From a virus: a stretch of DNA of 29,965 nucleotides. The stretch lies in IMG/VR virus record IMGVR_UViG_3300034111_000558, positions 1 to 29,965 of that record; one strand, 5' to 3'. The stretch's first letter is position 1. Every line of letters begins with the position of its first letter. The notes under the pieces are model-generated. The model saw only the letters and a program-made list of their open reading frames with translations, made no database searches and was not told where the DNA came from. Shown here piece after piece: positions 11,917 to 29,965 of the stretch. The position numbers and the translations under genes are program-made.

Positions 11917-11981
11917 CTGGAGCACAGCCGAAAAGCCTGTTTAAAGGATATCGGCAAATTTCGGCACGATGAGCATTCAAG

Positions 11982-12036
11982 CAGCGTCGGTCGTTTGCAG
12001 ATTTGGTATTTCCAAACCTGTCAGCGACCGACGCTG
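11982..12036 (+). promoter_or_regulatory. Stem-loop in the capsid gene leader
   Basis: A perfect 12-bp inverted repeat (CAGCGTCGGTCG at 11982-11993, complement at 12025-12036) encloses a second stem, TTTGG at 12002-12006 with CCAAA at 12012-12016, extended by CAG/CTG. TTTT follows directly. It could be a weak intrinsic terminator for the upstream genes or a stabilising 5' leader for the capsid mRNA. The ribosome site AAAGGA lies 26 bases beyond the hairpin. The remaining gap on either side holds no ORF. Confidence 0.65.
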
Positions 12037-12077
12037 TTTTCGTTTGGTCCTGACTCAAAATCAAAGGATCAAACACA

Positions 12078-21815: not shown

Positions 21816-23968
21816 ATCAGCTCTTCGGAAGAATGCACGACATAGCTTCAGGCGCGGCCGGTCTACCAGCAGAAACGGCCCAGCGTTATCGAGAGCAGTG
21901 GTTAGCGGAAGGCTACACGCTTCCCGAGTACGATGAGACAGCAGCGGCCAGAGTGATCGAACCACAGAACCGCCCCGGCGATGCCCTTCACGGCATTCTG
22001 CGAGAAGAACACGGGTTTAAGATCGCCTCCTGCAAGTGCCAGGAGTGGATCGACAAGATGAACGCTTGGGGCCCTTCCGGATGCAGAGAGCATCTGACGG
22101 AAATCGTTGATCACCTCTACGAAGAAGCCTCAACGAATCCACAAGTCAGTCAGGCGATTCGGCTCGGGCTGCAAGTTCCGATCATCGGCCCGATGGAAGG
22201 CAGACGAAGAATCACGGCAATTGTGAGGAGAGCTGTTGAGATGGCAGAGACCGCCCCGAACCGAAACACCACTCAAGAGGAACTGGCGATCCGTTTGGCG
22301 TCACCCGCGCACAAATGGCCCGCAGGTTGGCGAGACTGGCCGAATGTGATCGAGTATCACCGGGAGCTGCTGAGGGCTGAACTGTTCCGCGACTGTCCCG
22401 CGACTATCCCGCCACTGTCCCGAGCGATCCTGATCCCAGCTGGCGGGCGATGCCAGATTTACGACAAGTCAGCCCCTCAGTTCTATTTCTGGGGCGCGTA
22501 CGCTGCAGCCTGGGTTCTCCGGTCATACGGCTGCACGTTGCCGATCCAGTTCTGGTTCCTTCCAGGCGAGATGGAGGAGATCGAGTTCTGCGAATTGCAC
22601 GCCCGAAGAGTGGCGGCAACCTGTCATGTGGTCGATACAAGCGGAATGCGATGCGTTCACGGTTGGCAGATCAAGATCAATGCGATCCTGCAGAGCGAGT
22701 ATCAGCAGGTGATTCACCTCGACGCGGATAACATCGTCACGAAAGACCCGTCGTATCTGTTCGACTGCGAAGCATTCCAGCAAAACGCGGCCATGTTCTG
22801 GATGGACAACCCGAACGTGAACGACTTTCACGGGCGAATCATTGAGGACCAGTGGAAGCGAACGGGCTCCGATCGACGGGATCGGATCAACGATATTGAA
22901 ACAGGCCAAATGGTGATCGACAAAATCCGAGGGGCCAAAGCACTGCAGATCGTGAAGCACTTCGCAGATCGTGCCGACTATTGGGAAGGGTTCAACGGAG
23001 GAGAGCGAGGAGTCTGGTACGGAGACAAAACGTCGTTTCACATGGGCTTTAAGCTGACAGGAACACCTCACCACATTCAGCCGTGGAACCGATGGAACGC
23101 TGGCGGGTTTTATGAGCACTGCGATCCTGACGGCAATGTGATCTTTCAACATGCGTGCCATCGGAAAGGACATCTGAACAACGGCCACGCGATCCAGAAC
23201 CTAAAGGGGAATCAGCTGATCGAGGAGGCGGCCGCGTTCAAAGGCCCGCTAAAGTTTCTTGACGGCACAATCGAGGACGCTTTGCGGTGCATTGCTCCGG
23301 AACGCTGTTTCGCAATCGAGTCCGATCGAATCAGCCGAGAAACGTGGCTCGATGTGCTAGGCCGGAATGAATACCTGCTGGCTCCGACGATCCCGGCCAA
23401 TGCCGTCGTGATCGATATCGGGGCGAACTCCGGAGCGTTCAGCTACGCCTGCCTCCGCCGAGGTGCGGGAACTGTCGTAGCATATGAGCCAGGACCGGTC
23501 GCAGACTTAGCTGAGAAGAACTGCTCCGAGTTTGGGAGTCGGTTCAGCCTAGTGAGGAAGGCGGTGTGGCGGTCCGATCAGGAAGGGATGAGGTTGGAAC
23601 TCGCTCCTTCCCACAAGGAACTGCACTCTGGGTCTATGTCGGCAGTGTTACCTCAACGAGGTCCCCGCATCACGGTAGAGACGATCAGCCTCGATTCAAT
23701 TCTTCAACAGTTCGAGAGGGTCCACATCCTCAAGCTGGATTGTGAAGGGGCTGAATACCCGATTCTGATGACCTGCACCGAACTCCATCGGGTGGAGCAC
23801 ATCTTAGGCGAGTATCACCACGTGAATTTCGAGTGGTCGATCGATAGCCTGAAGCGGCATCTCGAATCGGTTGGTTTTGAGGTTTACCGAATCATCCCCC
23901 ACGAGAAAACGCACGGCAATTTTTGGGCACGAAGAAAGCATGGTTACGGCCCGGAGTCGAGTGGATAA
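21812..23968 (+). CDS. Glycosyltransferase fused to FkbM-type methyltransferase
   Basis: A 718-residue protein (GTG 21812, GTGA overlap, with GTG 21803 as an alternative). Part 1, residues 1-190, has a Cys motif C-K-C...M-N-A-W-G-P-S-G-C (Cys74, 76, 91). Part 2, about 200-500, resembles a GT-A glycosyltransferase of the mannosyltransferase (MNN1-like) type, with H-L-D-A-D-N holding the metal-binding D-x-D at 304-306 and late H-A-C-H. Part 3, about 510-718, is an FkbM methyltransferase with V-I-D-I-G-A-N-S-G-A-F-S and V-A-Y-E-P-G-P for SAM binding and K-L-D-C-E-G-A-E. It may add a methylated sugar to virion proteins or host surface glycans. The acceptor is unknown. Confidence is high for parts 2 and 3. 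Confidence 0.8.
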   Translation: MNQLFGRMHDIASGAAGLPAETAQRYREQWLAEGYTLPEYDETAAARVIEPQNRPGDALHGILREEHGFKIASCKCQEWIDKMNAWGPSGCREHLTEIVDHLYEEASTNPQVSQAIRLGLQVPIIGPMEGRRRITAIVRRAVEMAETAPNRNTTQEELAIRLASPAHKWPAGWRDWPNVIEYHRELLRAELFRDCPATIPPLSRAILIPAGGRCQIYDKSAPQFYFWGAYAAAWVLRSYGCTLPIQFWFLPGEMEEIEFCELHARRVAATCHVVDTSGMRCVHGWQIKINAILQSEYQQVIHLDADNIVTKDPSYLFDCEAFQQNAAMFWMDNPNVNDFHGRIIEDQWKRTGSDRRDRINDIETGQMVIDKIRGAKALQIVKHFADRADYWEGFNGGERGVWYGDKTSFHMGFKLTGTPHHIQPWNRWNAGGFYEHCDPDGNVIFQHACHRKGHLNNGHAIQNLKGNQLIEEAAAFKGPLKFLDGTIEDALRCIAPERCFAIESDRISRETWLDVLGRNEYLLAPTIPANAVVIDIGANSGAFSYACLRRGAGTVVAYEPGPVADLAEKNCSEFGSRFSLVRKAVWRSDQEGMRLELAPSHKELHSGSMSAVLPQRGPRITVETISLDSILQQFERVHILKLDCEGAEYPILMTCTELHRVEHILGEYHHVNFEWSIDSLKRHLESVGFEVYRIIPHEKTHGNFWARRKHGYGPESSG

Positions 23969-23981
23969 ACAACGCGACTCA

Positions 23982-24032
23982 AAAACGCAGTCTGGGAAGG
24001 GCCAACTCGATCGGGTTGGCTCGCTGCGTTTT
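23982..24032 (+). promoter_or_regulatory. Bulged stem-loop after the glycosyltransferase gene
   Basis: AAAACGCAG (23982-23990) pairs with CTGCGTTTT (24024-24032). Inside, a 10-base 5' bulge (TCTGGGAAGG) precedes a perfect 6-bp stem, GCCAAC (24001-24006) with GTTGGC (24015-24020). The right arm ends in TTTT, so it may serve as a terminator, but its geometry is the same as the hairpins before csrA. It ends the late gene block. Confidence 0.65.
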
Positions 24033-24156
24033 GCAAGTAAAAAACACGACTTTCCAAAATCTTCTCGCAAAACACTAAGTGTATATTGCATTGCCATACG
24101 TAGGGCAATACATTGCGTCTCAGTCAAACCCAAACACCAAGCCAAGGACGCAAGCA

Positions 24157-24273
24157 ATGCACTACTTCCAACTGACAGCTGGCAAGAACATTTACACCTG
24201 CCTGAGCATCGACGAGGCTCGAAACCTCCAGCAGCGAATCGGCGGAATCATCGAGCACCAGTTCTCGAACTGA
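24157..24273 (+). CDS. Stand-alone 38-residue protein (moron-like)
   Basis: ATG 24157 has AAGGA at 24144-24148 with an 8-base spacer. A longer in-frame start at 24079 lacks a ribosome site. The product is MHYFQLTAGKNIYTCLSIDE followed by an Arg/Gln-rich helix ending H-Q-F-S-N. The gene is flanked by a bulged hairpin upstream and a textbook terminator downstream, so it forms its own transcription unit between late and early regions. This layout is typical of accessory 'moron' genes. I recognise no family and no function. Confidence 0.55.
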   Translation: MHYFQLTAGKNIYTCLSIDEARNLQQRIGGIIEHQFSN

Positions 24274-24293
24274 GACGAAACGAAGGCACGAAG

Positions 24294-24322
24294 AGGCCGC
24301 TCAGAAATGAGTGGCCTTTTTT
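24294..24322 (+). terminator. Intrinsic terminator after the 38-residue gene
   Basis: AGGCCGCTCA pairs with TGAGTGGCCT around a GAAA tetraloop (one G-U pair), followed directly by six T residues. This is the clearest terminator in the window, a stable stem with a GNRA loop and a U-tract. It isolates the small gene from the helicase operon. Confidence 0.92.
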
Positions 24323-24421
24323 ATTTGCAACAACGACGCGAATCATGATTGGTTGTTTTGTCATGGAAGTGGTTATCGAAAAATGTCAGAATGATCTGTT
24401 GACATTGTTTCGAGTTCTCGC

Positions 24422-24532
24422 AAGACTGTCCGCACGTTGGTGCAAGCGACGTGACAATCGAAATGAACGGGGTAACCCGATTTATCAAAAGGCTCGTTGA
24501 ACTGCTTGCACCAGTTTGACGGGTCTTTTTTT
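24422..24532 (+). ncRNA. Candidate structured RNA ending in its own U-tract
   Basis: This lies in the 312-base gene-free stretch 24274-24585. TGGTGCAAGC (24438-24447) pairs perfectly with GCTTGCACCA (24504-24513). Outside it, AAGAC (24422-24426) pairs with GTCTT (24523-24527), with GTC/GAC between. Inside, AATCG/CGATT or CGGG/CCCG can pair. Seven T residues follow (24526-24532). A TTGACA at 24399-24404 lies upstream but no good -10 accompanies it. The weak ORF across this span has no ribosome site. It could be a small regulatory RNA, or a long terminator-like leader for the helicase operon. Confidence 0.5.
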
Positions 24533-24585
24533 GTGCAACGGAGTTTCGATCTGCATTACTGCGGAGCGAAGCGGTGGAGTGCAGT

Positions 24586-26073
24586 ATGCGTATCGACTTT
24601 GATACCCGCTCGGCTGAAGACTACGCCCGATTCCTCGCAGTCAGGCGATGCCCGATCTATCAGTTCAAAGGATCGGCCGCAATTGTTCCAGACGAATACG
24701 CCTCGATGGTGGGCGTGAAGGCAAAACGAAAAACAGGCAAAAAATACACTCCAGCCGTCAACCTGTTCGACTACCAGGCTGACATTGTTCGCATCGCAGT
24801 TGAACGTCGCAAGTATGCGATTTTTGCGGACTGCGGACTCGGTAAGACGATGATGATTTTGGAATACGCCAGACATGCTGCCACGGTTACTGGCGGACGA
24901 GTACTGATTGTGTCTCCGCTTATGGTTTGCAGGCAGACTGTAGATGAGGCGGCAAAATGGTACGGCGAGCGAAATGGTATCGATCGTGTTCGTGCTTCGG
25001 ATCTTCAGTACTGGCTTGATGGCGAGTACAACGGTTTTGATTCGCAGATCGCCGTCACGAATTACGAATCGATTCGTGAAGGACTAAGGCCGGGAAAGCT
25101 GTCGGCGTTGATTCTCGATGAGTCATCAATGCTAAAGAGCCATTACGGAGCATGGGGCACACGACTGATCGAATTGGGCCGTGGACTCGACTGGAAGCTT
25201 TGTGCGACAGGAACGCCGGCCCCGAACGATAGAATTGAATTCGCAAATCACGCGGTGTTTCTCGATCGAGCAAAAACAGTCAATGAGTTTCTTGCCACCT
25301 ACTTCATCAACCGTGGCGAAACGCAGAACCGATGGGAACTAAAGCCGCACGCCTTAAAGCCGTTCTATCGTTCGCTGGCTGATTGGTCGATCTTTCTAAC
25401 GAATCCAGCAACCTACGGATGGAAGGATAATGTCGGCGTCACTCCACCGATTAATATTCACATTGATCACATTGACCTGACCGACGAACAACGCAAGGCC
25501 GCTCAGGCTGTCACCGGCTCGCTGATCACAAACAACGTCGGCGGCATTGGCGACCGTGGCAAGCTGTCGCAGATCGCAAAAGGAAAAGGCGGAATTGCAT
25601 CGCTGAAGCCAGCGTTTATTAGGGCACAGGTCGAGAGTTGGCCGGATGAATCGACAATCATTTGGTGCCACTACAACGACGAGCAAGAGCAGATGGAAAA
25701 GCTGTTTCCTGAAGCCGTCAGCGTATCCGGCGACACAAAAGAAACAGACCGAGAAGCGGCTGTCGATGCGTTTAAGTCCGGCCGTGTCAAAGTGCTTATT
25801 ACGAAGCCAAAGATTCTTGGGTTCGGCCTGAATCTGCAGGTATGCACTCGGCAGATATTTAGCGGCATAAAGGACTCATACGAGGAGTTCTATCAGGCCG
25901 TGAAACGATCCAATCGCATTGGATCAACGAAGCCTCTCAATGTCCATATTCCAGTGACAGAGCTGGAAGTGCCTTTTGTCGACAACGTGCTGAGAAAAGC
26001 CGGGCGAGTGCAGCAGGACACTGAAGAGCAGGAATCACTTTTCAAGGAAATTGGCCATGCATGTTTTCGATGA
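24586..26073 (+). CDS. SNF2-like superfamily 2 helicase/ATPase
   Basis: I chose ATG 24586 (GGAG at 24576-24579), giving 495 residues. Motifs in order: Q-like F-D-Y-Q near residue 62, Walker A D-C-G-L-G-K-T (Lys87), V-S-P-L-M-V as motif Ia, Walker B L-D-E-S-S (Asp178-Glu179), motif III A-T-G-T-P-A-P-N, then the second RecA domain with T-I-I-W-C-H-Y, V-S-G-D-T, L-I-T-K-P-K-I-L-G-F-G-L-N-L and Q-A-V-K-R-S-N-R-I-G as motifs V and VI. Such phage helicases act in replication, recombination or DNA remodelling. The gene overlaps the DNA methyltransferase by 17 bases, so the two are coupled and may work together. Confidence 0.88.
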   Translation: MRIDFDTRSAEDYARFLAVRRCPIYQFKGSAAIVPDEYASMVGVKAKRKTGKKYTPAVNLFDYQADIVRIAVERRKYAIFADCGLGKTMMILEYARHAATVTGGRVLIVSPLMVCRQTVDEAAKWYGERNGIDRVRASDLQYWLDGEYNGFDSQIAVTNYESIREGLRPGKLSALILDESSMLKSHYGAWGTRLIELGRGLDWKLCATGTPAPNDRIEFANHAVFLDRAKTVNEFLATYFINRGETQNRWELKPHALKPFYRSLADWSIFLTNPATYGWKDNVGVTPPINIHIDHIDLTDEQRKAAQAVTGSLITNNVGGIGDRGKLSQIAKGKGGIASLKPAFIRAQVESWPDESTIIWCHYNDEQEQMEKLFPEAVSVSGDTKETDREAAVDAFKSGRVKVLITKPKILGFGLNLQVCTRQIFSGIKDSYEEFYQAVKRSNRIGSTKPLNVHIPVTELEVPFVDNVLRKAGRVQQDTEEQESLFKEIGHACFR

Positions 26074-26992
26074 TTCAGAACAGTTCCACGTCCATCACGG
26101 CGATTGCATTCCGCACATGCTGGAAGACATGCCGGAAGACTCGGTCGACTTTGCGATATTTAGCCCTCCATTCCCGTCGTTGTACGCATACAGCGATGCA
26201 GAGGGCGACATCGGCAATGTTGATTCAATGGGGATGGAAGCTGCCGTCCATTTGTCGTTCATGTTCAATGGACTTGCAAGAGTTCTAAAGCCAGGACGGG
26301 CTGCAATCGTCCACGTCTGCCAGATTCCACGAATGAAGCGATCTGGCGGCGTTGGGCTTTGCGACTTTCGCGGCACTAACATTCGGCTCGGTGAACGTGC
26401 CGGCTTGGTGTACGAATACGATTGGAGCGTTCGTAAGAATCCACAATCACAAGCCATTCGAACACGATCGCGGGAACTTCAGTTTGCTGGACTTGAATCA
26501 GACCGAGCAAAGCAACGCGGCACCTTGCAAGACTACCTGATTAAGTTTCGCAAGCCTGGAGAAAACGTCGTCGCGATTGACGCTAAGGGCCAAGTCAGCC
26601 GAAACGATTGGATCTCATGGGCCGAAGGTTGCTGGGACGACATCCACGAAACGGATACTTTAAACACGGCGGCTGCAAAATCGGACGACGATACAAGGCA
26701 CATTTGCCCGCTGCAGCTTGAAGTGATTCGGCGTTGCGTACTGCTTTATTCAAATCCTGGCGAAATTGTATTCAGTCCGTTTGCCGGTATCGGATCGGAA
26801 GGATTCGTTTCGCTCGGCGGTGCATCGCCAAAGACAAAAAAGGCAATCTTTGACAAACGGCGTTTTTATGGCTGCGAACTCAAGACCGAGTATCACAATC
26901 AAGCCCTAAAGAATCTGGAACTTGCAACACGCCAACATTCGTCAGTGCATCAATCAAGTTTGTTTGCGGAACTTGAGGAGGCCGCAACATGA
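26057..26992 (+). CDS. DNA methyltransferase, SPPF (N4-cytosine/N6-adenine) type
   Basis: I chose ATG 26057, with AAGGA at 26044-26048, giving 311 residues. The catalytic motif IV is F-S-P-P-F (residues 35-39). The SAM-binding motif I comes late as F-S-P-F-A-G-I-G (239-246), preceded by the L-Q-L-E-V-I-R-R-C segment and followed by G-C-E-L-K-T-E-Y, so the order IV...I is that of beta-class enzymes. SPPF suggests N4-cytosine methylation but adenine cannot be excluded. There is no linked restriction nuclease. It probably protects phage DNA against host restriction or marks it for replication control. Confidence 0.88.
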   Translation: MHVFDDSEQFHVHHGDCIPHMLEDMPEDSVDFAIFSPPFPSLYAYSDAEGDIGNVDSMGMEAAVHLSFMFNGLARVLKPGRAAIVHVCQIPRMKRSGGVGLCDFRGTNIRLGERAGLVYEYDWSVRKNPQSQAIRTRSRELQFAGLESDRAKQRGTLQDYLIKFRKPGENVVAIDAKGQVSRNDWISWAEGCWDDIHETDTLNTAAAKSDDDTRHICPLQLEVIRRCVLLYSNPGEIVFSPFAGIGSEGFVSLGGASPKTKKAIFDKRRFYGCELKTEYHNQALKNLELATRQHSSVHQSSLFAELEEAAT

Positions 26993-27144
26993 AGAAGCAA
27001 AAGCAAACAGATGCATCGCAGGTTCGGATGCTACCACCGCTGGACAATTTAACGCTAGAAGACTGGGCGCGTATTTGCGAGCGAGTTGAGTCACGTTACG
27101 GAAAGCGGCCAGACGCAGTTTTTGATGAGGAGCCCGCCCGATGA
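26989..27144 (+). CDS. Hypothetical protein, 51 residues
   Basis: A small frame starting at an ATGA overlap with the methyltransferase gene, with GAGGAGG upstream, a very strong ribosome site. The product begins M-K-K-Q-K-Q-T-D and contains L-P-P-L-D-N-L-T-L-E-D-W-A-R-I-C-E-R-V-E, then a basic-acidic tail. Its stop overlaps the next ATG. No family is known to me. The strong signals argue for a real, well-expressed early protein. Confidence 0.6.
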   Translation: MKKQKQTDASQVRMLPPLDNLTLEDWARICERVESRYGKRPDAVFDEEPAR

Positions 27145-27485
27145 ACCAATTAACGCTAGGCTTTGACACGCCTGCCAGCATCAGCCGCAAATCCGACCCG
27201 ATCACCAGCCAGAAGTCAGCGGCGGAGTTTCAGAAGAAACTGAAAGGCGCAAAAGCCGCCTGTATGTTCATTTTGAATCACTACACGTATCCATTAACGG
27301 CGCGAGAAATAGCAAACAGGTGCGTGCAGTACGCAGGTGGATTCGAGTCGTCATATAGGGCAAGACCATCAGAACTTGTAAAAGATGGGTTTGTCGAGGA
27401 ATGCGGTGAACGCAAGTGTGAGGTGACCGGAAAATCAGCGATGACGTTTCGCGTGAAGGAGCAGCATCTATGCCGCGAGAACTAA
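27141..27485 (+). CDS. Winged-helix DNA-binding protein
   Basis: A 114-residue protein starting at an ATGA overlap. After a linker-like N-terminus with S-D-P-x-T-S it has helices A-A-C-M-F-I-L-N-H-Y and L-T-A-R-E-I-A-N-R-C-V, then S-S-Y-R-A-R-P-S-E-L-V-K-D-G-F-V-E-E-C as recognition helix and wing, followed by strand A-M-T-F-R-V-K. This is the plan of small phage winged-helix proteins that sit in replication regions. It may regulate early genes or bind replication origins. DNA target unknown. Confidence 0.65.
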   Translation: MNQLTLGFDTPASISRKSDPITSQKSAAEFQKKLKGAKAACMFILNHYTYPLTAREIANRCVQYAGGFESSYRARPSELVKDGFVEECGERKCEVTGKSAMTFRVKEQHLCREN

Positions 27486-27874
27486 TCGATCTCACGCAGA
27501 AAACGTTCGGCAAACTGATTGTCATTCGGCTCATCGAAATACTTCGAGCCAATGGAGAAAGCAGACCGTACTGGATGTGTAAATGTTCGTGCGGAAAGCA
27601 TGTGAGAGTTCGCGGTGATGTCCTGCGTGATGGGCGAAAAACAGATTGTGGATGCAAGACGACAAAGCAGCATTTTCGCAAATCGATTCTTGAGGTGAAC
27701 GGACAACGGAGAACGGTCGAGCAATGGGCACGATTCTACGGAATACGACCGAGCCACATTTATGACCGACTTCGATGCGGAATGAGCGTTGAGCAAGCAG
27801 TGACAACTCCAGTCGGGAAACCTGGTGTCAGGATTAGGAACAACGAGAAAAGGAGCCTCGAACATGCTCGCTGA
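27470..27874 (+). CDS. Zinc-motif plus HTH DNA-binding protein, HNH-relic type
   Basis: A 134-residue protein with AAGGAG at 27456-27461. Residues 1-65 match the common phage module I-D-L-T-x-K-x-F-G-K-L followed by Y-W-M-C-K-C-S-C-G-K and T-D-C-G-C-K, giving a four-Cys zinc site. Residues 75-115 (V-N-G-Q-R-R-T-V-E-Q-W-A-R-F-Y-G, S-H-I-Y-D-R-L-R-C-G) form a helix-turn-helix DNA-binding module like those attached to phage homing nucleases. No catalytic HNH or GIY-YIG core is present, so it is probably a nuclease relic or a site-specific regulator. It overlaps both neighbours. Confidence 0.62.
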   Translation: MPRELIDLTQKTFGKLIVIRLIEILRANGESRPYWMCKCSCGKHVRVRGDVLRDGRKTDCGCKTTKQHFRKSILEVNGQRRTVEQWARFYGIRPSHIYDRLRCGMSVEQAVTTPVGKPGVRIRNNEKRSLEHAR

Positions 27875-28016
27875 AATCGCAACAAAGTGCTTTGTGTTTT
27901 TGATTCTTGTGATGCTCGGATGCTTTGCGGCCGGCTCGTCTGAGATCGCATGTGAGCGGACAGAGCGCAAACGAATTGAACGGCAGATCCGTGCAAAGTA
28001 TGGAAGAACTTACTAA
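27864..28016 (+). CDS. Small membrane protein, 50 residues
   Basis: ATG 27864 has AAGGAG at 27849-27854 upstream. Residues 8-28 are hydrophobic (K-C-F-V-F-L-I-L-V-M-L-G-C-F-A-A-G). The rest is a strongly basic, charged helix (R-T-E-R-K-R-I-E-R-Q-I-R-A-K-Y). This is a one-span protein with a soluble basic tail. The function is unknown. Small membrane proteins in early regions often control superinfection or host membrane state. It precedes the hairpin array. Confidence 0.55.
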   Translation: MLAEIATKCFVFLILVMLGCFAAGSSEIACERTERKRIERQIRAKYGRTY

Positions 28017-28052
28017 CCGGCGAGCGCAAGGGTGCACCGGATTTCTACTCCC

Positions 28053-28124
28053 TCAGAGCCTGACCGATTGGAGAAGAAGCCAACGGCTGGCCCCCGCAAG
28101 CCATTAAGGCTGGTCAGGCTCTGA
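28053..28124 (+). ncRNA. Structured element 1 of 3 upstream of csrA
   Basis: A perfect 13-bp outer stem (28053-28065 with 28112-28124, TCAGAGCCTGACC on the left) is followed on the 5' side by a 12-base bulge (GATTGGAGAAGA), then AGCC/GGCT (28078-28081 with 28108-28111) directly stacked on the outer stem on the 3' side. An inner GGCTGGC/GCAAGCC pair (one mismatch) has a CCCC loop. There is no ORF with a ribosome site here. It may be an RNA leader, a small RNA or a protein-binding site. Confidence 0.65.
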
Positions 28125-28132
28125 TTTGTCCT

Positions 28133-28192
28133 CCTGCGAACAGTCGCCAAGGGTCGGCGTTTTTTAGCAGTCACGCCGAGACTGTTCGCAGG
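28133..28192 (+). ncRNA. Structured element 2 of 3 upstream of csrA
   Basis: A perfect 13-bp outer stem (CCTGCGAACAGTC at 28133-28145 with its complement at 28180-28192) is followed by an 8-base 5' bulge (GCCAAGGG) and a perfect 7-bp inner stem, TCGGCGT (28154-28160) with ACGCCGA (28173-28179), which stacks directly on the outer stem on the 3' side. The loop is 12 bases and starts with five T. Twenty base pairs in all without a mismatch. Confidence 0.7.
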
Positions 28193-28206
28193 TTTTGTGT
28201 TCTCCC

Positions 28207-28259
28207 GTGAGCGGTCCAGGTAGCACTGATGGCGTGCACAGACGCCATGTACCGCTCAC
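28207..28259 (+). ncRNA. Structured element 3 of 3 upstream of csrA
   Basis: A perfect 9-bp outer stem (GTGAGCGGT at 28207-28215, complement at 28251-28259), a 13-base 5' bulge (CCAGGTAGCACTG), and a perfect 7-bp inner stem ATGGCGT (28229-28235) with ACGCCAT (28242-28248) around a 6-base loop. The csrA ribosome site AAAGGA lies only 18 bases further. The three elements occupy nearly all of the 273-base gap 28017-28289. Confidence 0.7.
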
Positions 28260-28289
28260 TGGCTTTGTTCTAAATGAAAGGATTTCAGC

Positions 28290-28553
28290 ATGTTGGTGCT
28301 CGGAAGGAATTATGGACAGGAAATCATCATGACCGTTGGCGATGAGACAATCATCGTCAAAACGATTGAGATGACTGGTCGACAGGTAAAGCTCGGGATC
28401 ACAGCGTCTAAGAACGTCAGAATCGATCGCAAAGAGATTCATGATGCGATCATGGAGACCGGATTCAATCCGGAAGCGAATCCGGTGAAGCCCACGGTTA
28501 TTCGAATTGGCGAGCGACTTCCGGGCGAGCTGATGAGGAGAAAGCCGCAATGA
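28290..28553 (+). CDS. csrA: CsrA-family RNA-binding translational regulator
   Basis: An 87-residue protein with the CsrA signature: M-L-V-L-G-R at the start, I-I-V-K-T-I-E-M-T-G-R-Q-V-K-L-G-I, then V-R-I-D-R-K-E-I-H. The two RNA-contact arginines are kept: Arg6 and Arg47 (equivalent to Arg44 in E. coli). CsrA dimers bind A-N-GGA motifs in mRNA leaders and block or expose ribosome sites. The csrA gene's own site, AAAGGA at 28277-28282, contains GGA and suggests autoregulation. It has a C-terminal extension (residues 62-87) beyond the usual 61. The gene follows three long hairpins and overlaps the next gene. The phage may redirect host or phage translation. Confidence 0.9.
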   Translation: MLVLGRNYGQEIIMTVGDETIIVKTIEMTGRQVKLGITASKNVRIDRKEIHDAIMETGFNPEANPVKPTVIRIGERLPGELMRRKPQ

Positions 28554-28786
28554 GTAAGTCTACACGCCGCAAGGATGCGAAGCTAAACAAGACCGACCGC
28601 TACTTTCCGCAGGAGTACCCAAGCGCGGAAGAGATAGCAGAGCAGAAACGCATTCAGGCGGAAATACTGACTGAGAAAATGGCAGCAGGTCCACCAGAAC
28701 CGGAAGGAACGTTTGTGCGGCCGACAAAGGTTTACTCTTTAAACATGCTGCCAAGCGGTCGCGGCGTATTGAGGGGGCAAGGATGA
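28550..28786 (+). CDS. Hypothetical early protein, 78 residues
   Basis: A small, charged protein starting at an ATGA overlap with csrA and ending in an overlap with the resolvase gene. It has a basic N-terminus (S-T-R-R-K-D-A-K-L-N-K), a helix with E-E-I-A-E-Q-K-R-I-Q-A-E-I-L, and a Pro/Gly-rich tail (P-P-E-P-E-G, M-L-P-S-G-R-G). No family is recognised. Translational coupling with csrA makes joint control likely. Confidence 0.5.
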   Translation: MSKSTRRKDAKLNKTDRYFPQEYPSAEEIAEQKRIQAEILTEKMAAGPPEPEGTFVRPTKVYSLNMLPSGRGVLRGQG

Positions 28787-29196
28787 GAGAACTGGTGGTG
28801 CATCACGAGCCAGTCGGACAGCCACGACATCGCATATCGACACACGGGAAACATGCCCGCATGTACCTGCCAACAAAGCATCCGGTTCACGCATTTAAGC
28901 GAGCGATACAGGCGGAATTCGGCAAGCGGTTGCCATTCCATGAGGCCGTTGAAGTGGTCGTCAACGCATGGTTTCCACGACCAAAGTCAAAGACATGGAA
29001 AACACGGCCGATGCCATCGTATCGACATATTAAAAAGCCTGATGCTGACAACGTACTCAAGGCGGTTTTGGATGCACTGAACGGGCTGGCGTGGGTTGAT
29101 GACGCTCAGGTGTTTTCAGCGACCGTAAGAAAATTTGTGTGCAGTGGTGAGTGTGTTCCTAGGTGTGAAATTGTGATTAGAGGAGTGAGTGAATGA
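28783..29196 (+). CDS. rusA: RusA-type Holliday junction resolvase
   Basis: A 137-residue protein of the usual RusA length (about 120-140). It shows the family core R-H-I-K-K-P-D-A-D-N-V-L-K-A-V-L-D-A-L-N with catalytic Asp87 and Asp89, then G-L-A-W-V-D-D-A-Q-V with Asp106/107 and a final strand. The N-terminal part P-V-G-Q-P-R-H-R matches the family. It cuts four-way junctions during phage recombination or before packaging. It overlaps the next gene by four bases, so the two probably act together in recombination-dependent replication. Confidence 0.9.
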   Translation: MRELVVHHEPVGQPRHRISTHGKHARMYLPTKHPVHAFKRAIQAEFGKRLPFHEAVEVVVNAWFPRPKSKTWKTRPMPSYRHIKKPDADNVLKAVLDALNGLAWVDDAQVFSATVRKFVCSGECVPRCEIVIRGVSE

Positions 29197-29960
29197 AGAT
29201 CTTGAAAGGTAAACAGGGCGGACCACGTCGCGTCCTGTTTCACGGGACGAACTTTATCGGCAAGACAACGTTTGCTTCGCAGGCATTCGGCGGGGCACTG
29301 TTGGCGAATCTCGAAGACGATAGAGACGTTGACATGGACAAAACGCCGCCAATTCGAACTTGGGACGAGTGGCAGGAGTTTTGGTTGCATTGCGACACAG
29401 CGGCCGCAAAAGGTGAGTTTTCTTATCGCTGGATTGCCATCGACACAATCGACGCTTTGCAGCGGATTATTGAGAAGCAGATCTGCAAAGAAAAGAACGT
29501 CGAAAGCATGGCCGACGACAAGTTTTCGTATGGCAAGGGCAACAAGTTTATTGAGGCCATGTGGGACAAGATCAAGTTTCAACTGGATTGGCTGCACACC
29601 GAACGCGGGCTGGGAATCATCCTGCTGGCACACAGCGAAGCCGTGAAGATCACTCCGCCAGATGCGCCATCCTACGAACGCTGGGAACCGTCTGTCTGTG
29701 AGTTCGCTCGTGATCTTCTTTGCGATTGGTGCCAGGAAGTTTTCTTTGGATCGTTCCGAACTTACGCAGTCAAAGAAGACACCGGATTTAATCGCACTCG
29801 AAACATCGCGGCGGGTGGCAGCGAGCGTTTTGTCAGGACGCAGCCAACGGCGGGAGTCCGTGCCAAGAACCGTTTGAACATGCCGGAAGAAATGGTTGAG
29901 TTTTCGTTCGAGAAGTATGCAGAGTTTTTTGTCCCGAGTGAAGTTTTGAAAGGTAATTGA
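29193..29960 (+). CDS. RecA-fold ATPase, Sak4-like (AAA_24)
   Basis: A 255-residue protein of the phage AAA_24 type. Walker A is H-G-T-N-F-I-G-K-T-T (Lys24). The Walker B strand is W-I-A-I-D-T-I-D with Asp84, and the sensor-like strand is G-I-I-L-L-A-H-S-E-A. Such proteins (Sak4-like) promote single-strand annealing or strand exchange with a partner SSB. Placed after RusA, it fits a recombination module. The gene is complete in the window (stop at 29958-29960). Confidence 0.85.
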   Translation: MKILKGKQGGPRRVLFHGTNFIGKTTFASQAFGGALLANLEDDRDVDMDKTPPIRTWDEWQEFWLHCDTAAAKGEFSYRWIAIDTIDALQRIIEKQICKEKNVESMADDKFSYGKGNKFIEAMWDKIKFQLDWLHTERGLGIILLAHSEAVKITPPDAPSYERWEPSVCEFARDLLCDWCQEVFFGSFRTYAVKEDTGFNRTRNIAAGGSERFVRTQPTAGVRAKNRLNMPEEMVEFSFEKYAEFFVPSEVLKGN

Positions 29961-29961
29961 G

Positions 29962-29965
29962 ATGG
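29962..29965 (+). CDS. Start of the next gene, cut by the window edge
   Basis: An ATG at 29962-29964 follows the ATPase stop by one base, with AAAGG (29949-29953) before it. In this operon the next gene would normally start here. Only its first codon is in the window, so its product cannot be told. An SSB or another recombination partner would be expected after a Sak4-like gene, but this is inference. Confidence 0.4.

Follow-up and report, generated by a model that had tools for sequence, protein, structure and literature searches.

Sequence comparison points to a mosaic row of structured RNA modules upstream of csrA in a family of uncultured phages

Introduction

What does a row of tandem folded elements do directly in front of a phage gene for CsrA, an RNA-binding regulator? 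The question arises from a virus record of 29,965 bp (IMGVR_UViG_3300034111_000558), the whole of which is the window analyzed here. Family matches in the window are to terminase, portal, major head protein, tape measure, helicase, DNA methylase, csrA (PF02599), RusA, and a Sak4-like protein. An earlier note, made from the letters alone, had described three bulged hairpins in the gap before csrA (28017-28289) and had suggested that they form a leader or small RNA under selection for shape. A literature search found no description of this csrA-upstream array. We examined the gap and its counterparts in related contigs, and weighed what the row might do.

Results

The gap before csrA folds into tandem elements

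An inverted-repeat search (spans of at most 100) found three perfect inverted repeats in the gap, at 28053-28124 (13 bp), 28133-28192 (13 bp), and 28207-28259 (9 bp). Both 13-bp stems are the longest of the whole window, and no stem of at least 12 bp appeared in five Markov-shuffled windows. The gap as a whole folds at -118.8 kcal/mol (z = -3.7), and none of 200 shuffles folded equally well; z scores for the single modules C, D, and G are given in Table 1. Hence, the hairpins claimed earlier are present, with outer stems that pair perfectly over 13, 13, and 9 bp, and lie well above chance. The bulge sequences and the three GGA triplets (28039, 28070, and 28280) had also been reported correctly. 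Two further features emerged: a small extra hairpin begins at the base after the upstream stop codon, and the third module reaches beyond its 9-bp stem, a single C.T mismatch interrupting what is a perfect 12-bp stem in L002. T-rich tails lie 3' of the stems on the + strand only. No Rfam family reached its gathering score in the window, and a search of the gap at E up to 10 returned one chance-level match only.

Table 1. Parts of the csrA leader in the window
Feature	Position	Strand	Basis
Module A, small hairpin right after the upstream gene's stop codon	28017..28040	+	fold; pairing in relatives
Module C, 13-bp closing stem, variable arm 1, conserved arm 2 with core CGGCTGGCCCCCGCA	28053..28124	+	z -4.45; 17 forms
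T-rich tail and linker 3' of C, TTTGTCCT	28125..28132	+	sequence; tails compared
Module D, 13-bp closing stem, 8-nt 5' side (short arm in relatives), 7-bp arm 2	28133..28192	+	z -5.86; 22 forms; model R1 76.5 bits
T-rich tail and linker 3' of D, TTTTGTGTTCT	28193..28203	+	sequence
Module G, 9-bp perfect stem, CC/GG beyond one mismatch, two arms	28204..28262	+	z -3.65; counterparts in L002, L021, L022, L257
T-rich tail of G, CTTTGTT, weaker than in relatives	28263..28269	+	sequence
AAAGGA, probable csrA ribosome-binding site, contains the third GGA	28277..28282	+	sequence
csrA, 87 aa	28290..28553	+	PF02599, E 1.2e-12, 48 bits

Elsewhere in the window, a gene ending at 23968 is followed by a hairpin (23982-24032) whose geometry matches that of the csrA modules, an outer stem of 9 bp (AAAACGCAG/CTGCGTTTT) enclosing a 5' bulge and an inner stem.

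Modules are swapped, added, and lost before csrA

A CsrA search yielded 30 viral loci, and pattern and profile scans added further ones. The resulting 115 csrA loci, many of which overlap on shared contigs, represent 40 distinct upstream regions; all relatives are metagenome contigs and are possibly fragments. A module C, D, or E lies within 330 nt of csrA in 115 of the 115 loci examined, a count that is biased because part of the loci were picked up through the modules themselves. At least one module stands directly 5' of csrA in all of these overlapping loci, even with csrA alleles less than 50% identical. Among the 30 loci found by CsrA alone, the remote L030 (46% over 50 residues) was the only one at which no array was seen. 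csrA relatives with missing or broken stems, which the earlier note had named as the finding that would count against it, did not turn up in the 115 loci. Phage records gave no nucleotide match and, at the level of CsrA, remote matches only, and in bacterial genomes neither the module D pattern nor a confirmed CsrA relative was found. Two sets of candidates were set aside: a 14-mer scan returned more than 120 stretches, rejected as chance for a pattern that short, and C-pattern matches with a 63-bp span proved to be one common conserved sequence that looks coding and is unrelated to the array.

Judged from these loci, the csrA-upstream region in this family of uncultured phages is a mosaic row of modules that have been swapped, added, and lost. 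We named the modules A to G, where A is the small hairpin and B comprises two hairpins; the main modules are about 45-75 nt long. Before csrA we found C alone (L213, L214, and L256) or E alone (L186), pairs of modules in the orders E-D (L155 and L162), C-D (many loci), and F-D (L014), and triplets in the orders C-D-G (the window), E-D-G (L002 and L021), and F-D-G (L022). The same modules precede csrA alleles of less than half identity, with or without the C-terminal tail RIGERLPGELMRRK, and the genes flanking the array are exchanged as well. The window's major head protein has no match in G002 and G003, records that are possibly incomplete and whose csrA is 98% identical. The D and C models each find one strong place per record (22 and 18 records, respectively), so these modules are not dispersed repeats. 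The window's G matches the D model weakly (E 0.049); D and G may share an origin or only a form.

Several other features of these loci deserve a record. The tail RIGERLPGELMRRK (window 28500-28550 and relatives) is almost unchanged across CsrA cores that are about 45% identical, and is absent from some array-linked CsrAs. The csrA type of L023-L029 appears to start with ATC, its conserved start having no ATG, GTG, or TTG. A tRNA-like element sits in the array row at L002:2708-2775 (+), and also in L003, and scores 48.7 bits with RF00005 against a gathering score of 29. It has no seven-base anticodon loop: four model positions are missing, the anticodon arm is a 5-bp stem with UUU at its end, and the anticodon is absent. 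ARAGORN called no tRNA there, and a 27-base exact piece of the element occurs in those two viral contigs only. About 140-240 nt 5' of csrA, L021 carries a 100-nt element that resembles a cloverleaf and in which GCGGTTCGAATCCGC looks like a T arm (fold z -2.3); it gave no Rfam match at E up to 5 and is possibly a decayed tRNA.

Compensatory changes indicate selection on a + strand RNA

The 13-bp closing helix of D is paired in 286 of 286 cells across 22 distinct forms, with two-sided changes at 5 of its 13 pairs and at three more pairs in the longer arm. In C, 98.5% of cells are paired across 17 distinct forms and seven pairs show two-sided change; its short arm, aligned by hand, exchanges UA to CG, GC to AU, and AU to GC or CG. 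The inner stem of A is paired in 10 of 11 relative forms, and one of its pairs varies between A-U, C-G, and G-C, with G.U on the + strand. Distinct forms are not the same as independent events, and shuffles correct for relatedness incompletely. In a control that keeps relatedness but slides the 3' strand, only 24-44% of cells were paired, compared to 96-98% in the true register of D and C.

Many of the intermediates between paired states are G.U on the + strand and would be A.C mismatches on the - strand. Because these wobble intermediates pair on the + strand only, we suggest that the + strand RNA is what is selected. The D model (R1) likewise scores 76.5 bits on + and 35.8 bits on -. A conserved + strand RNA structure of the modules is therefore well supported by the comparative evidence, and the suggestion of selection for shape holds up: C and D show compensatory changes in their closing helices and arms, and the place before csrA is constant.

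The shape itself is richer than a bulged hairpin. Several C, D, and G forms are predicted to fold as three-way junctions, in which the element described earlier as a 5' bulge is the short arm. The bulge was thus read correctly as sequence but corresponds to a short arm in many relatives; that arm is missing from the minimum-energy folds of other members, including the window's C and D, where the stretch is open, and the window's third bulge folds through CAG/CTG. Module F is predicted to form a four-armed cloverleaf. The folded tops span about 30-48 nt, and the C core CGGYTGGCCCCCGCA is nearly invariant while the C stems vary. Module E folds no better than its shuffles (z -0.09).

A second conserved leader hairpin lies before the major head gene (window 11982-12036; the fold of 11975-12060 has z -8.1). 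Across the window (11979-12077) and L260-L264, its stem pairs are exchanged, and it is kept at a head protein identity of only about 40%. On its 3' side lies a further hairpin that, in the window and several relatives, engages the ribosome-binding site region in pairing.

T-rich tails follow the modules, strongest next to csrA

Every module type is followed by a T-rich stretch, with a mean of 4.6-7 T in the first 8 bases compared to 22% T in the regions, and nearly all C, D, F, and G modules of relatives have a T tract at once after a stable stem. By type, the mean longest T run is 4.25-7 beside csrA and 2.9-4 at internal positions, although the samples of C and E at the last position are very small. 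The tail next to csrA is usually T4-T7, the window's CTTTGTT being an exception, and a sole module C or E has a tail of T5 or T7; internal C tails are weak. Most D and G modules at the last position have terminator-type scores of about 0 or above; E and the window's G (-30) score below 0.

The last module ends 25-30 nt from the csrA start codon, or 38-39 nt in the one csrA type that apparently starts with ATC. With a gap of only 25-30 nt, there is no room for a promoter between the last module and csrA. At 24000-29965 no sigma-70-like promoter was seen; promoters of other types are possible.

Discussion

A terminator-like leader is the favored reading

With some hesitation, we favor reading the gap as a leader assembled from cassettes, which resembles a terminator (attenuator) and would gate csrA. 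What fits is a stable helix with an immediate T tract, found on a single strand just ahead of a gene and leaving no space for a promoter behind it. A structured leader RNA would be transcribed toward csrA, each main module presenting a closing helix, often that of a three-way junction, with a T-rich tail right after it; in anatomy, such a module corresponds to an intrinsic terminator whose top is folded. Transcription from upstream genes would then meet one to three modules before csrA and mostly stop, which would leave csrA expression to read-through. This read-through may be raised by a factor of the phage or the host, through antitermination or through recognition of the conserved cores. 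Both termination and regulated read-through are what we infer from this anatomy.

A plain terminator is no explanation for the nearly invariant C core. It also leaves the folded tops and the cassette exchange unexplained, and for these reasons we suggest that a factor or ligand may be recognized. Several observations count against a terminator: the scores of the window's last module and of E are negative, E folds like its shuffles, the tops far exceed terminator loops of the usual size, internal C tails are weak, and in L263 and L264 no clear T tract accompanies the similar hairpin of the major head gene leader. An alternative helix between the D inner loop and the D closing strands, hinted at by repeated CAGTC or ACGGTC, was rejected, as shuffled loops did equally well (fractions 0.11 to 0.999).

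Other readings of the row

Alternatively, the hairpins could act in processing and stability, as RNase III or RNase E punctuation and 5' protection that frees and stabilizes csrA mRNA, with the U-rich stretch 5' of the ribosome-binding site aiding translation. We consider this unlikely, but it has points in its favor. Long interrupted helices suit RNase III, the distance to the start codon is constant in independent csrA leaders, and the leader of the major head gene likewise contains a long conserved hairpin, which does not always have a T tract. However, every module type has its T tract exactly at the 3' foot of the closing helix, the last module has the strongest, and processing needs none.

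A bolder version of the terminator-like leader, which we offer as speculation, is an exchangeable cassette system in which different junction-shaped RNA modules, with a tRNA-like element without an anticodon loop in two cases, sit on a common terminator-like chassis. Each module would answer another factor, and the row would be a multi-input gate on csrA.

That each module is instead an independent or processed small RNA, with a terminator-like 3' end and acting in trans on host or phage targets, strikes us as rather improbable. The modules are discrete, 45-75 nt long and U-rich at the 3' end, and each is exchanged as a whole; F is a predicted cloverleaf, and a tRNA-like element can occupy a slot in the row. 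Yet no promoter-like site was seen in the region, and one strong place per record for C and D, with csrA downstream in all 115 loci, is more natural for a cis element.

The earlier note had proposed a leader or small RNA that binds CsrA or another protein. A cis-acting leader is the part we favor; binding of CsrA by the array finds no support in the GGA counts. Linkage to csrA and the GGA in the csrA ribosome-binding site, the most regularly kept one, would suit a leader or sponge for the encoded CsrA, but the gap has only the three GGA, just 2 of the 22 D forms have a GGA between the closing strands (among the 17 C forms, 10 contain one), and a stable GGA-presenting hairpin at the ribosome-binding site is weak or absent in most relatives. 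We therefore regard CsrA binding as very unlikely and reject a sponge, since the modules do not keep GGA; that a CsrB-like sponge was unsupported, with so few GGA and no series of GGA loops, had been anticipated correctly.

Least credible of all are DNA-level palindromes, recombination joints or mobile repeats that do not act as RNA: the site is a mosaic joint around which flanking genes and csrA are exchanged, but the single strong place per record, the strand-specific wobble intermediates and T-rich tails, the strand preference of the D model, and covariation in the inner arms all speak against them.

If the terminator-like leader is right, phage regulatory RNA can evolve through cassette exchange before a single regulator gene, and the array hints at how a phage could time a CsrA-type regulator, which may redirect host mRNA use. 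The modules also add several families of structured RNA that covary strongly and have no counterpart in Rfam.

Comparison with known systems

REP-like dispersed palindromes differ in copy number, as C and D are not present in many copies per genome but at one strong place per record. CsrB/CsrC sponge RNAs are likewise hairpin-rich and here, too, the RNA adjoins a CsrA-family gene, but the array has no series of GGA loops. Tandem riboswitches and attenuators resemble the array in placing several structured domains before one gene with a terminator-like stem. The array, however, has no Rfam riboswitch match and its module types are exchanged between phages, and the attenuator's antiterminator helix was not found in a comparison of the D inner loop with its own closing strand only. 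Compared to an intrinsic terminator, the modules have the T tract directly after a stable stem (the window's G tail being weak) but not the short loop, their folded tops being about 30-48 nt.

Among phage systems, the HK022 put RNA is a structured RNA of about 70 nt that acts in cis in the nascent transcript (PMC9378689), similar in size to the array's modules, which would likewise act in cis. It consists of two stem-loops near early promoters, a short way downstream of them, and suppresses termination by acting on RNA polymerase, whereas no sigma-70-like promoter was seen here and each module has one long closing helix and a T tail and stands before csrA. Lambdoid phages have terminators ahead of their early genes, and antitermination lets transcription pass them (PMC9378689). 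The array resembles such lambda N/nut-type terminators in its stable stem and immediate T tract before a gene in the same direction; it differs in that termination is here inferred, and in its large folded tops, its tandem exchangeable modules, and its nearly invariant C core.
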